Part shown: piece by piece, positions 23,964 to 34,877 of the stretch
Layout: every line of letters begins with the position of its first letter
Position numbering within the stretch: position 1 is the first letter of the stretch
Source: a virus
DNA length: 34,877 nt
Virus record (IMG/VR): IMGVR_UViG_3300035212_001456
Span: 1 to 34,877 of that record
Direction: 5' to 3' (one strand)
Program-made: the position numbers and the translations under genes
Notes under the pieces: model-generated
What the model was told of the DNA's origin: nothing
The model's input: only the letters and a program-made list of their open reading frames with translations
The model's database searches: none

Positions 23964-24154
23964 GCCCGGTGCCTCCAACGGACGGTGGGGTACCGCTCGG
24001 TGAGCCAGATGATGTGCCCGGCGGGGCACTCGTGAGCCATCTGGGGCGGATTAGTCATCCGCATCGTCATGCTCGCTGGCTTCATCTCTTCTCCGCACTC
24101 GTCGCAATCGTAGGCGACCCCGTGGGGTTCAATAGGGAACTCGCGCTCACTCAT
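23960..24154 (-). CDS. Small zinc-ribbon-like protein
   Basis: 64 residues. Two cysteine pairs of zinc-ribbon type: CDECGEEM (Cys17/Cys20) and HECPAGH (Cys43 and a following His). Metal binding is likely, in a compact fold. The stop overlaps the next start and the ATG overlaps the polymerase stop (ATGA). Small phage zinc-ribbon proteins are often modifiers of host transcription or DNA enzymes, but no function can be assigned. Confidence 0.75.
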   Translation of the reverse strand: MSEREFPIEPHGVAYDCDECGEEMKPASMTMRMTNPPQMAHECPAGHIIWLTERYPTVRWRHRA

Positions 24155-26913
24155 GCTGATTGCCTCTGGTGCATCAAGAACTCGACGACTGATCTAGTCT
24201 GGTCGTCATTGAGACGCCCGCCCCATGCGCTCTCGGGGAGGAAGTCCAGCTTCGGGGCCTCGAACAGTTCGATCTGGCCGATCTGGCCCTTGATCGGCTT
24301 GTCGCCGTTCCAAGGCTCGAAGGTCAGGCCGACGGCCGGTGTGGCGTCCAGCTTCAACGTCTTGAAGATGTCGTCGTGCGACATCATCACCATGCGGGCC
24401 ATCGTGATGAACTCGACCACGAGGTCCTTGTGGACCGACCAGACCTTCTCGTCGTGGACGGGGATCTTGAAGTTGGCCTCACGCTTCGTCCAGCCGGCCT
24501 CGGCCAGCATCTTCTTCAGCCGAAGGATCGACCGCTTGATGATGAAGGCGTTGGTGCCCTGAACCTGTGCGTTGACCGCTTGGTTCTTGGCCCGCTTGTT
24601 GATGCGGCGGCAGATCTCACGGACGATGGGGCGCAGCTCCTGCGCGTCCGGCCACTTGGCCGAGAACGCTTGGATCCACTCCTCCGTGGCCTCGTAGCGG
24701 AACCGGCGGTGACCATCGAGGCGCTCGACGTAGCCGTGGATTTCGGCGTGCTGGATCGTGTCCATGCGCCACTGCTCGCCGCCCCAGAAGCGGTTCCGAT
24801 AGAACTCGGTCGCCTCACCGGTGCGCTGCAGACCCCAACCCATGCGCTGCCCGACGGTGGTCAGGAAGCCCGAGTACCAGTAGTTGAAGTTTGCACCCTT
24901 GCCGATCTCGGTCCGCCAGTACTTGGCGGCCTTGGCACCGGTCATCGCCTCGCCCTTCAGGTTGGTGAAGAGGCGGTCGCGTTCGAAGGCCTTGCACCCG
25001 TACTCCTTCTGGAAGTCGTCCGGGCTCTGGTAGTTCTTCAGGGTCTTGAAGATCTCCTCGCTCATCCACGGGATTTCGGCCCGGAAGATGTCGGCCGCCG
25101 CGCCGAGGTGCATGTCTTGGTGCGGCAGCTGGCCGAAGGCCTTGGCGAACTCCTCGTCGCCCGACAGCTCGCCGATGATGACCAGCTCGAAGGCCGACCA
25201 GTCGAGCGAGACGAGGACGTGGTCGTCGTAGTCCGGCAGGAAGAAGCCGCGGACGTAGGTGCTCTCACCGCGCTTGGCCAGCTGCATCAGGTTCGGCGTC
25301 GAGCCGGCGAGGCGCAGCGTGTTCAGCAGGCAGTTGACGGTCGGATACATCCGGTCCGTCTCGGGGTCGGTGAGGAAGGTGTAGGGGGTCAGGTACAGCT
25401 TCATGCGCTGCTCGACGCCGGCCATGGCCGTCATCACCTCGATCACCTTCAGCTTGGCCTCGGCGTTGTCGACTTGGTTCTGCTTCAGCCAGTCCTGCAC
25501 CTTGCCGCGCGCTTCGCCATCCGACTGGATCTTGCCCTTGTCGAACATCATCTTGGCGCGGATCAGGTCGTAGAGCAGGACCCGCACCGGCATGTAGTGG
25601 GTGATCGACAGCATCTTGGCCTTGGCCGAAGCCTTGAGCTCGACGCCCTCACGGTCCATCATCCATGCGTTGCCGACGGGCGACGAGATCTGGATGCACT
25701 GCTCGTAGTCGTCGGCGCTGTCGGGGCTGTTGGCCCAATCCTCCCACTGCCTGCGGTACTTGTGGTAGCCACAGGCCGCATCAGGCTTGTCCGGGTTGAA
25801 GTACCAGTCCTGACGCTTGGCCAGCTCGCGTTCAGGGCCGTCCTCGAACGGCAGCAGGGCGCGGATGGCCGGCTTCAGTTCACGCAGCAGCTTCGCGAAC
25901 TCGACGCGCTCCAGCGCCCGGCGTTCATCGATGGCGGGCTTGTTGACCCGCATCCCGTCGAGCCAGATGTCCGAGTAGACATGGATCATCGGGTTCTCTT
26001 GCTCGAAGAACGTCCCCAGCGCGTTGGGGCTGTTCAGAGCCAGCTCTTGCATCAGACGATGGAAGAGAGGGACGACCCAGTAGGCGTCGTCCGCGCCGTA
26101 CTCGACGACCTCATCGCCGGTCAGCATGCCCATGTGGGCGTTGCCATTCATGACCTCGTCGAAGGTGGTCATCTCGACGCCGAAGAACTTCTTGACGAGG
26201 TTCTTCAGGCCGTGGCCGTAGGCCATGTCATAGACATAGCCGTTGTAGGAGCCGTCGCTGTCTGCGGTCTTCGAGGTGATCTTGCCGATGATCTCGTCGA
26301 CCTTGCGGCTGAAGCGCCGGGTCTCCTCACCATCCTCGTCGGGGATCAGGTCCGAAGGCTGCGTCTCCATCGCGGCCATGAGCAGCGGCTGCAGGTGCAT
26401 CTTGATCGGGCCGAGGTCGCGAGCCCAGAACTCCCGCTTGTCGTAGTTGTCGTCGCCGAAGGCCGACACCGACATCTGCATAGTGCAGGTGATGTTCTCC
26501 AGCGCGTAGCTGTGGCAGGCCATGAAGGCGGTCAGCTCGTAGGGTGCGTTGTGCGCGACCCACAGGACGCTGCCCGGCTTGGCGTCGAGGAAGGGCTTCA
26601 CTTCCTCCCACGCCAGCCGGTTCTCGACGTCGGCGTGGGCCAGATTGATGTAGTAGGCGACGTCGTGGCCCTCGGGGTAGAGCGAGAAGCCGGTCATCAC
26701 CGTGCGGCGCATGTCGAAGACGAGGCGCTTGTTCTTGGCCTTGTGGCGCGTCTCCTCGTTGACCTTCATGAAGGCGTTGAGGCCGTCGTGCCGGGCGTCG
26801 TCTTGCGTCTCGCAGTCGATGCCGACGAGGCCCTTGGCCGCGGCCATCACCGCGAGGATTTTCGGACCCTCCTCCGCGATGCTGCGGCGGTCCACGAGGA
26901 CTGTGCGGATCAC
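24151..26913 (-). CDS. Family A DNA polymerase with 3'-5' exonuclease domain
   Basis: 920 residues from GTG that overlaps the preceding stop (GTGA). Exonuclease motifs: DCETQ with Asp33/Glu35, HNAPYELTAF (121-130) and EYGADDAYW (271-279). Polymerase motif A LDWSAFEL with Asp571, motif B region KGANFNYWYSG (672-682) with an upstream Arg, the QGTNAF helix near 785, and motif C VHDE (819-822). About 90 residues of extra sequence separate motif A from motif B, more than in E. coli Pol I, and motif A lacks the usual ELR. No 5'-3' nuclease is fused; that activity is a separate gene at 27170-27964. The likely replicative polymerase of this phage. Confidence 0.95.
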   Translation of the reverse strand: MIRTVLVDRRSIAEEGPKILAVMAAAKGLVGIDCETQDDARHDGLNAFMKVNEETRHKAKNKRLVFDMRRTVMTGFSLYPEGHDVAYYINLAHADVENRLAWEEVKPFLDAKPGSVLWVAHNAPYELTAFMACHSYALENITCTMQMSVSAFGDDNYDKREFWARDLGPIKMHLQPLLMAAMETQPSDLIPDEDGEETRRFSRKVDEIIGKITSKTADSDGSYNGYVYDMAYGHGLKNLVKKFFGVEMTTFDEVMNGNAHMGMLTGDEVVEYGADDAYWVVPLFHRLMQELALNSPNALGTFFEQENPMIHVYSDIWLDGMRVNKPAIDERRALERVEFAKLLRELKPAIRALLPFEDGPERELAKRQDWYFNPDKPDAACGYHKYRRQWEDWANSPDSADDYEQCIQISSPVGNAWMMDREGVELKASAKAKMLSITHYMPVRVLLYDLIRAKMMFDKGKIQSDGEARGKVQDWLKQNQVDNAEAKLKVIEVMTAMAGVEQRMKLYLTPYTFLTDPETDRMYPTVNCLLNTLRLAGSTPNLMQLAKRGESTYVRGFFLPDYDDHVLVSLDWSAFELVIIGELSGDEEFAKAFGQLPHQDMHLGAAADIFRAEIPWMSEEIFKTLKNYQSPDDFQKEYGCKAFERDRLFTNLKGEAMTGAKAAKYWRTEIGKGANFNYWYSGFLTTVGQRMGWGLQRTGEATEFYRNRFWGGEQWRMDTIQHAEIHGYVERLDGHRRFRYEATEEWIQAFSAKWPDAQELRPIVREICRRINKRAKNQAVNAQVQGTNAFIIKRSILRLKKMLAEAGWTKREANFKIPVHDEKVWSVHKDLVVEFITMARMVMMSHDDIFKTLKLDATPAVGLTFEPWNGDKPIKGQIGQIELFEAPKLDFLPESAWGGRLNDDQTRSVVEFLMHQRQSA

Positions 26914-33657: not shown

Positions 33658-33881
33658 GATTTCATCTCCTTCACTGCGCGCCGGATGAACTGGCGAACCC
33701 AGTCCTCCTGATGCACTTCACGTTTTTTGCTGGGACTGTTCGACAGGGTCGTCTGCCGGCGGGCCTCACCAAGCGTCACCTCCATGAGGACGTGCTTAGA
33801 GCCCGGGCGGAACGAGATGGAGGCCCCCAACTTGGAGGCCTCCGCCATCGCCGCCGCGACGACCTTACGCGCTACCAGCAT
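33627..33881 (-). CDS. Small hypothetical protein, HicA-like fold possible
   Basis: 84 residues from ATG. The pattern (SKLGASISFRPGSKHVLMEVTLG...LSNSPS...RQFIRRAVKEM) is like small phage proteins with a dsRBD/HicA-type alpha-beta fold: helix, beta hairpin with a GKH-like turn, then a basic helix. It overlaps both neighbours (17 and 31 bases). A HicA toxin role is not supported because no HicB partner is adjacent. The start could instead be the internal ATG at 33848. Confidence 0.65.
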   Translation of the reverse strand: MLVARKVVAAAMAEASKLGASISFRPGSKHVLMEVTLGEARRQTTLSNSPSKKREVHQEDWVRQFIRRAVKEMKSCNTSTPSKP

Positions 33882-34728
33882 CGGCCGGCTCGGCCGGGTA
33901 GGCGCTGTTGTCGGTCACCGTCCCGTTGATGCGGTACAGAGTGGTGTCGTCCGTGGCGAGCAGCTGGCCCTTGTACTTGCCATTGTACTCGTGGGCGGCC
34001 CGGAAGGGCATCAGGACGACGCGGCTCGACAGGCGCACCGTGCCCTCATCATCGGTCCAGCGCAGCCGGTTGTGGTCGGGGCCGTGGGCGATGATCTCGA
34101 CGTCGCCCAGATCTTCAGCGAAGTCCTCGCCCTCCAGCACCCGGCGCTCGGCCGCCGTGTCACGGTTGATCGCCAGATCGGCGTCGAACTTGTTGGGGAA
34201 CCGCTCCAGCAGCTTGTCGATGTTCTGGCGGTCGTTCTCATCCACGGACTGGCCGACGGCGTTCAGGCCGATGGCGCGGTACCAAGCGACGTCGCCCAGC
34301 TCCTCTTGGAAGTTGACGATGTCGAACGCCTCTCCGTTGAACAGGGTCTTCACGGCGGCTTCGAGCAGCTCACCGCCCTCGGTCGCGATGCCGAGGATCG
34401 AGTGCAGGATGTGACCGTCCAGCTCGCCGGCGAAGACGGTGCCAGTGGTGGCGTCGGCGATGGGCTTCAGGGCGGCCGGCAGCGGCTTGCCGTAGGCGTA
34501 GGCCTTCTTGATGACGTCGAGGGCGGCCAGCGCGTTGATGGCGTTCATCATCGAGGACATCAGCAGCCCCGGGGGGACGGCGGTGGCGTGGTAGCCGTCG
34601 GGGCAGGTGCGCTGAGCGAGGGCGGCGTAGTTGAAGTCGGTCATGGTTCTCTCATGAAGGTGGGCGAAAACGCGTAGTTCGAGATCGGCGAAGTCGAGGC
34701 CGATCAGCTCGTAGTCCCGGGTGGTCAC
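33865..34728 (-). CDS. MazG-like nucleotide pyrophosphohydrolase with unusual N-terminus
   Basis: 287 residues from GTG 34728, which has a perfect GGAGG seven bases upstream and overlaps the preceding stop (GTGA). Residues 110-175 carry the MazG-type metal ligands Glu117, Glu120 (TEGGELLEA) and Glu143, Asp146 (EELGDVAWY), fitting hydrolysis of nucleoside triphosphates to monophosphate and pyrophosphate. Residues 7-24 (ELIGLDFADLELRVFAHL) look like motif A of family A DNA polymerases, see findings. An internal ATG at 34644 (residue 29) also has an AGAG-like site and would give a shorter product starting MTDFNYAALA. The C-terminal 100 residues are unassigned. Confidence 0.8.
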   Translation of the reverse strand: MTTRDYELIGLDFADLELRVFAHLHERTMTDFNYAALAQRTCPDGYHATAVPPGLLMSSMMNAINALAALDVIKKAYAYGKPLPAALKPIADATTGTVFAGELDGHILHSILGIATEGGELLEAAVKTLFNGEAFDIVNFQEELGDVAWYRAIGLNAVGQSVDENDRQNIDKLLERFPNKFDADLAINRDTAAERRVLEGEDFAEDLGDVEIIAHGPDHNRLRWTDDEGTVRLSSRVVLMPFRAAHEYNGKYKGQLLATDDTTLYRINGTVTDNSAYPAEPADAGSA

Positions 34729-34877
34729 GCGACGACCTCCGGCTCGGTCTCGGTGATGAGGATCATCTTCGCGCCGCAGGGGAGCAGGGCCTCGTCGGGC
34801 GAGTAGATCATCTCGCTAGGCCCAAGGCGGACCCTCATCCCGTACTTCGGCTTGCCCCTCTTGCCCTTCTGGATGCG
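34725..34877 (-). CDS. Hypothetical protein, C-terminal 50 residues only
   Basis: Open frame on the minus strand running in from the window edge and ending in TGA at 34725-34727, which overlaps the next GTG (GTGA). The visible part is basic at first (RIQKGKRGKPKYG) then acidic at the end (ITETEPEVVA). Too little is present to name it. Confidence 0.65.
   Translation of the reverse strand, partial: RIQKGKRGKPKYGMRVRLGPSEMIYSPDEALLPCGAKMILITETEPEVVA

Follow-up and report, generated by a model that had tools for sequence, protein, structure and literature searches.

The phage MazG-like pyrophosphatases (PHROG 229 / PF03819) have a common core and a set of invariant acidic residues, both of which are found again in residues 29-200 of the protein considered here; the latter differs from them in an added N-terminal peptide, absent from 77 of 80 loci, that resembles family A DNA polymerases (PolA). 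According to PMC6302109, more than 25% of the known dsDNA phages have polA, the gene of these polymerases. Two relatives of the protein resemble the PolA palm (PF00476) over about 45-55 residues, in which TGR, PxxQ and motif A have a similar sequence and follow one another in the same order; the window (the whole stretch of DNA analysed, 34,877 nucleotides) shares motif A alone. Unlike the palm, the peptide comes with shortened spacing, without the other polymerase parts and with scores under the Pfam cut-off. Motif A and the TGR stretch are standard terms for parts of the palm of family A polymerases. A third comparison is offered by a small protein of phages RDJL1, RDJL2 and RDJL6 and by gp192 of a Mesorhizobium phage, where TPTGR or PTGR is followed by a motif A-like peptide, as in the window's relatives, in phages that also have their own PolA; these proteins differ in that they are not fused to MazG, in their length of 122-171 aa, and in a similarity that is weak on its own. 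No description of a PolA-like peptide fused to MazG was found in the open-access literature of one library.

The MazG-like gene and its extension

The MazG-like gene and its upstream neighbours lie also, the gene at 100% identity, on a 54.9-kb IMG/VR contig, the twin of the window, which is itself a fragment. The features on which the argument turns are the following.

33865..34728, minus strand: MazG-like ORF, 287 aa, GTG start (ORF list; phrog_229)
34736..34740, minus strand: GGAGG ribosome site, 7 nt 5' of the GTG (sequence; duplex energy -10.7)
34725..34728, minus strand: GTGA, stop of the upstream ORF overlapping the GTG start (sequence)
34645..34728, minus strand: N-terminal extension, residues 1-28 (found in 3/80 MazG loci; pN/pS)
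34657..34707, minus strand: PolA motif A-like peptide LIGLDFADLELRVFAHL, residues 8-24 (Pfam DNA_pol_A; motif-only profile)
34642..34644, minus strand: internal ATG, counterpart of the start in most MazG relatives (weak ribosome site, -2.9)
34129..34644, minus strand: MazG-like core, residues 29-200, with E117, E120, E142, E143 and D146 (homologue alignment)
24151..26913, minus strand: own family A DNA polymerase (Pfam DNA_pol_A, E 6.7e-32)

In a profile search the ORF matches the MazG-like pyrophosphatases of phrog_229 at E 8.3e-43, and its Pfam MazG score of 12.9 bits is below the cut-off of 22. The five acidic residues listed above are the same in all 42 aligned homologues and make up the metal-binding motif ExxE...EExxD. 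The core is modelled as helical, with block-mean pLDDT mostly above 85, and a Foldseek structure search with the same model returned no PDB match at E <= 0.001. The product is a putative nucleotide pyrophosphohydrolase, a phage enzyme that would trim nucleotides.

The extension reads MTTRDYELIGLDFADLELRVFAHLHERT. The initial annotation had pointed to a motif A-like peptide at the start of this ORF and to an excellent ribosome site ahead of its GTG, and both are there: the peptide is in frame, and the GGAGG pairs with the anti-Shine-Dalgarno sequence at -10.7, against -2.9 for the internal ATG at 34644. The nearest named relative, gp080 of Caulobacter phage Seuss, is 42% identical from residue 8 onward and has SIVHMDFSEIELKVIAHLK at the same position, while a search with two N-termini yielded a third carrier, the 80.8-kb viral contig 3300034139_000007 (L018), with SLLHLDFADLELRVVAHMM. 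Judged by eye from the N-terminal sequences, the peptide is present in 3 of 80 MazG loci from viral contigs (the window's twin, the 80.8-kb contig and Seuss), and the remaining 77 either begin where the internal ATG lies, or close to it, or bear other, unrelated extensions. Homologues that all began at that ATG, with nothing conserved upstream, had been named beforehand as the sign of a chance resemblance; the two nearest homologues conserve the peptide, and this ground for reading it as chance therefore falls away.

Likeness to the palm of family A polymerases

Taken alone, the window's peptide aligns to positions 151-172 of the Pfam DNA_pol_A profile (E 0.051, 12.9 bits), which brings motif A with its catalytic aspartate onto D12, and all 19 of its phmmer matches among PDB sequences are PolA (best E 0.21). 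The first 73 residues of the Seuss protein reach E 1.2e-4 and 21.6 bits, residues 2-49 lying on profile positions 115-170; the alignment takes in TGRLS, the upstream stretch being STGRLSRHQPEIQ, and the upstream features TGRLS and PExQ lift the score from 14.6 to 21.6 bits. The corresponding stretch of the 80.8-kb contig is PTGRAYRSSPEWQ, so that in both phages a TGR...PExQ stretch stands 5' of motif A, in the same order as in PolA. A profile built from the three N-termini finds Taq Pol I as its best match among PDB sequences (E 4.1e-6), the best 60 of its 66 matches all being family A polymerases, and when the profile is restricted to motif A Taq Pol I again comes first (E 4.1e-4; 63 matched). 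A reversed-alignment control gave no PolA and a single non-polymerase match at E 1.1. The comparison of the N-terminus with PolA profiles, as had been proposed, supports a PolA origin for Seuss and for the three sequences together; for the window's peptide by itself it is suggestive and not significant.

Several results set the bounds of this likeness. The TGR half alone, used as a profile, matched nothing; the L018 N-terminus alone had 0 polymerase matches in the PDB, its whole MazG protein had no DNA_pol_A match, and its TGR half overlaps an upstream ORF lying in another frame. The curated cut-off of PF00476, 34.3 bits, was reached by no match, neither by the window's peptide nor by the Seuss N-terminus. 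No other part of the MazG ORFs matches PF00476, be it the rest of the palm, the fingers or the thumb (motifs B and C). Because the rest of the PolA domain is missing the extension is not a polymerase and cannot polymerise. The profile matches, the upstream TGR...PExQ and the low variation described below together lead us to regard the resemblance as most likely one of homology, with a PolA segment of some 20-50 residues that would have been selected for.

The main rival, which we regard as rather unlikely, is chance convergence, whereby an N-terminal helix that happened to resemble motif A arose in an ancestor and was kept for an unrelated structural reason. The motif A-like pattern is short, and equally good-looking peptides elsewhere look accidental, as in gp12 of Pectobacterium phage PP1, where the peptide replaces the CxC...CxxC stretch of the homologues; matches to a Klebsiella phage 71-aa protein, DoCa5 gp11, Alteromonas gp16 and Uliginvirus proteins have tblastn E values of 0.9-9, roughly those of chance. 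An exact DNA scan for DFADLELRV over 2.9 million viral contigs gave 3 matches, two of them MazG and the third an 848-aa ORF (DFADLEFRV). Against convergence stands the fact that Seuss, which had no part in finding the motif, displays the extra upstream PolA features TGRLS and PExQ, as well as the three-sequence profile, at E 4e-6, with nothing but polymerases among the best 60 of 66.

The phage's own polymerase has a motif A reading LDWSAFELVIIGEL, as the initial annotation had stated, and that of Seuss reads LDWSAFELVIIGQL. Both are odd, the aspartate and glutamate being retained and the usual arginine and histidine missing. A second or split polA gene, which had also been envisaged, is rejected: in the 54.9-kb twin PF00476 matches nothing but the phage's own polymerase (two pieces, one frame), and when the Seuss genome is scanned in six frames the MazG N-terminus (E 2.8e-5) is the sole match besides the own polymerase. 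No palm domain stands 5' of MazG among the N-termini of the 80 loci. In one contig, IMGVR_UViG_3300044297_000273 (L032/L118), a MazG-like gene is followed, about 560 bp downstream and on the same strand, by a PolA match. That the stray peptide is a copy of the phage's own polymerase was rejected where this could be judged: among 17 phages compared, the best local match falls on the own motif A, with differing sequence, in eight (Mesorhizobium, MAL1, MD18, Nerthus, S16c, DoCa5, Seuss and, partly via the TGR part, RDJL), and elsewhere in the polymerase for the rest.

Recurrence in other small phage proteins

The pairing of a TGR stretch with a motif A-like peptide is met again in proteins from the following loci.

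L150:2354-2869: Mesorhizobium phage gp192, PTGR...PEYQ...GIDFSGLEQRAIAHMM
L161:1534-1905, L162:2983-3387, L163:3001-3369: RDJL2, RDJL1 and RDJL6 small protein (phrog_28846, function unassigned)
L014:2357-2734, L101:1492-1872, L100:1480-1722, L149:580-828: Ruegeria/Phaeobacter phage small protein

A further protein carries a peptide of the same kind.

L011:2468-2683, L015:253-468, L148:568-783: Klebsiella T7-like phages, early 71-aa protein

The first, gp192 of Mesorhizobium phage Cp1R7A-A1 (171 aa; PTGRVQSQPEYQ...GVGIDFSGLEQRAIAHMM), is reached by tblastn from the L018 extension at E 0.5; it has five other distinct matches by tblastn, three of them annotated as DNA polymerases (E 4-8). From gp192 one reaches at E 2 the 123-aa protein of Roseobacter phage RDJL2 (MTPTGRKTSRPEPQ...LAEVDYSQIERRVL), whose relatives in RDJL1 and RDJL6 retain TPTGR and DYS..E.RV; in tblastn, residues 28-82 of this family also match DNA polymerases of Bacillus phages (E 1-8). 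A profile of the RDJL family only matches polymerases in 43 of 43 PDB cases, but weakly (best E 0.09), and the combined seven-sequence profile attains E 9e-8 (66 matched), a value that is partly circular, not independent, because it was their similarity to earlier rows that brought in the added ones.

Weaker look-alikes, at chance level taken singly, occur in Ruegeria/Phaeobacter phages and in several T7-like phages. The Ruegeria/Phaeobacter protein has PTGR or TTGR at its start and, in 2 of 4 members, a part of helical appearance followed by a motif A-like peptide. The DSS3_MAL1/MD18 family combines PTGR/TTGR with motif A-like peptides; its profile finds PolA at E 0.61, ranked behind two other proteins, and motif A is mostly lost in DSS3P8 and V10. 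We treat this family as a lead towards a wider recurrence of the pairing. In the Klebsiella protein DFADLELRVYAN is followed by a conserved basic, cysteine-bearing tail. The motif of the Nerthus type is partly retained in Alpheus and absent from Achelous, and the Mesorhizobium and Nerthus proteins touch phrog_12496 and phrog_8775, PHROGs without assigned function.

All 18 phages bearing the stray motif have their own PolA (15/15 and 3/3): each of the 15 phage records with the peptide matches DNA_pol_A with an E value of 1e-7 or better, 12 of them above the cut-off, and the other three are Seuss, the 80.8-kb contig and the window's twin. PolA was found in 7 of 26 and 4 of 32 controls (the second set minus the three carriers), which are records reached by the same searches, many of them fragments. 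This is a post hoc comparison, and 4 of the approximately 9 lineages belong to the T7-like phages, in which PolA is the rule. It is conceivable, if improbable, that a mobile mini-module of two PolA palm elements recurs in PolA-bearing phages, alone or on MazG, as a polymerase mimic; it might then serve as a replisome docking tag, regulate the phage polymerase, or divert a host factor by which phage PolA is recognised, as a decoy.

Retention of the extension and its likely role

Over 19 codons of the extension, the three phage pairs give pN/pS values of 0.40, 0.55 and 0.41, against 0.69, 0.90 and 0.87 for the MazG core, all of them rough figures because pS is near saturation. It is conserved in these phages, all three retaining D, F, E, L, V, A and H, with D12 invariant, and most likely it is at least as constrained as the core and kept under selection. 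The three extended proteins cluster together in a tree, at a very low split support (0.124). The 46 MazG rows, less one without an ATG start, came to 45; one alignment held 39 rows and the three extended proteins, and a smaller one 31 rows and the same three. In the AlphaFold2 models residues 13-28 form a helix, of middling confidence for the window and of low confidence for Seuss (block-mean pLDDT of the extension about 48-71 and 35-51, respectively). Among the matches listed from a scan of genome contigs for prophage copies there is one distant MazG. Phage MazG-like proteins carry several different, unrelated extensions (L023, L024, L037, L059, L070, L071, L082), and the MazG N-terminus looks like a place where small pieces get added.

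The initial annotation had offered three readings, a relic of PolA fused to MazG, a mimic, or chance. The PolA origin is supported by the profile searches; the idea of a decaying leftover is not, given that the constraint on the stretch matches that on the core of the enzyme. It is true that the window's N-terminus is some 22 residues shorter than that of L018, most of the TGR part being missing, as might be expected of an inert remnant of a lost polA, translated without function; yet the peptide is still conserved where synonymous changes are near saturation, and the residues common to all three phages include those shared with PolA, which makes such a remnant quite improbable. It is more doubtful still that MazG starts at the internal ATG, the upstream frame being open by accident or regulatory: the 77 loci that begin near there or have unrelated extensions, and the GGAAG that precedes this ATG in Seuss, would fit, but the upstream stretch is constrained at the protein level and the outer GTG has its strong ribosome site and its stop-start overlap. 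Duplex energies favour the outer start in L018 also (-5.9 vs -3.0) and slightly favour the internal ATG in Seuss (-3.0 for the outer, -4.1 for the internal start).

The reading that we prefer, while regarding it as an even bet, is the following: a PolA palm segment joined in frame to MazG in a Seuss-like ancestor, translated, selected, and given a docking or mimic role. A segment of the family A palm (motif A, with TGR...PxxQ too in two relatives) would make up the first 25 residues or so; it would have been fused in frame to the start of the MazG-like pyrophosphohydrolase in an ancestor of Seuss-like phages, with translation beginning at the outer start codon and selection retaining the peptide. 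As a short helix ahead of the MazG bundle it could bind a partner that normally contacts that part of the polymerase, and such docking might bring an enzyme that hydrolyses nucleotides into contact with the replication machinery, or regulate this enzyme. Because the peptide is conserved and is linked to PolA-bearing phages, a putative docking or mimic peptide is, we infer, its most likely role.

If it is indeed a working piece of a polymerase set on another enzyme, phages would have reused a motif of a catalytic core as a binding tag, and MazG, the role of which in phages is unsettled, would be physically tied to replication. Should the wider pattern hold, there would be a class of polymerase-mimic proteins overlooked by annotation, because their matches sit under the curated cut-offs.
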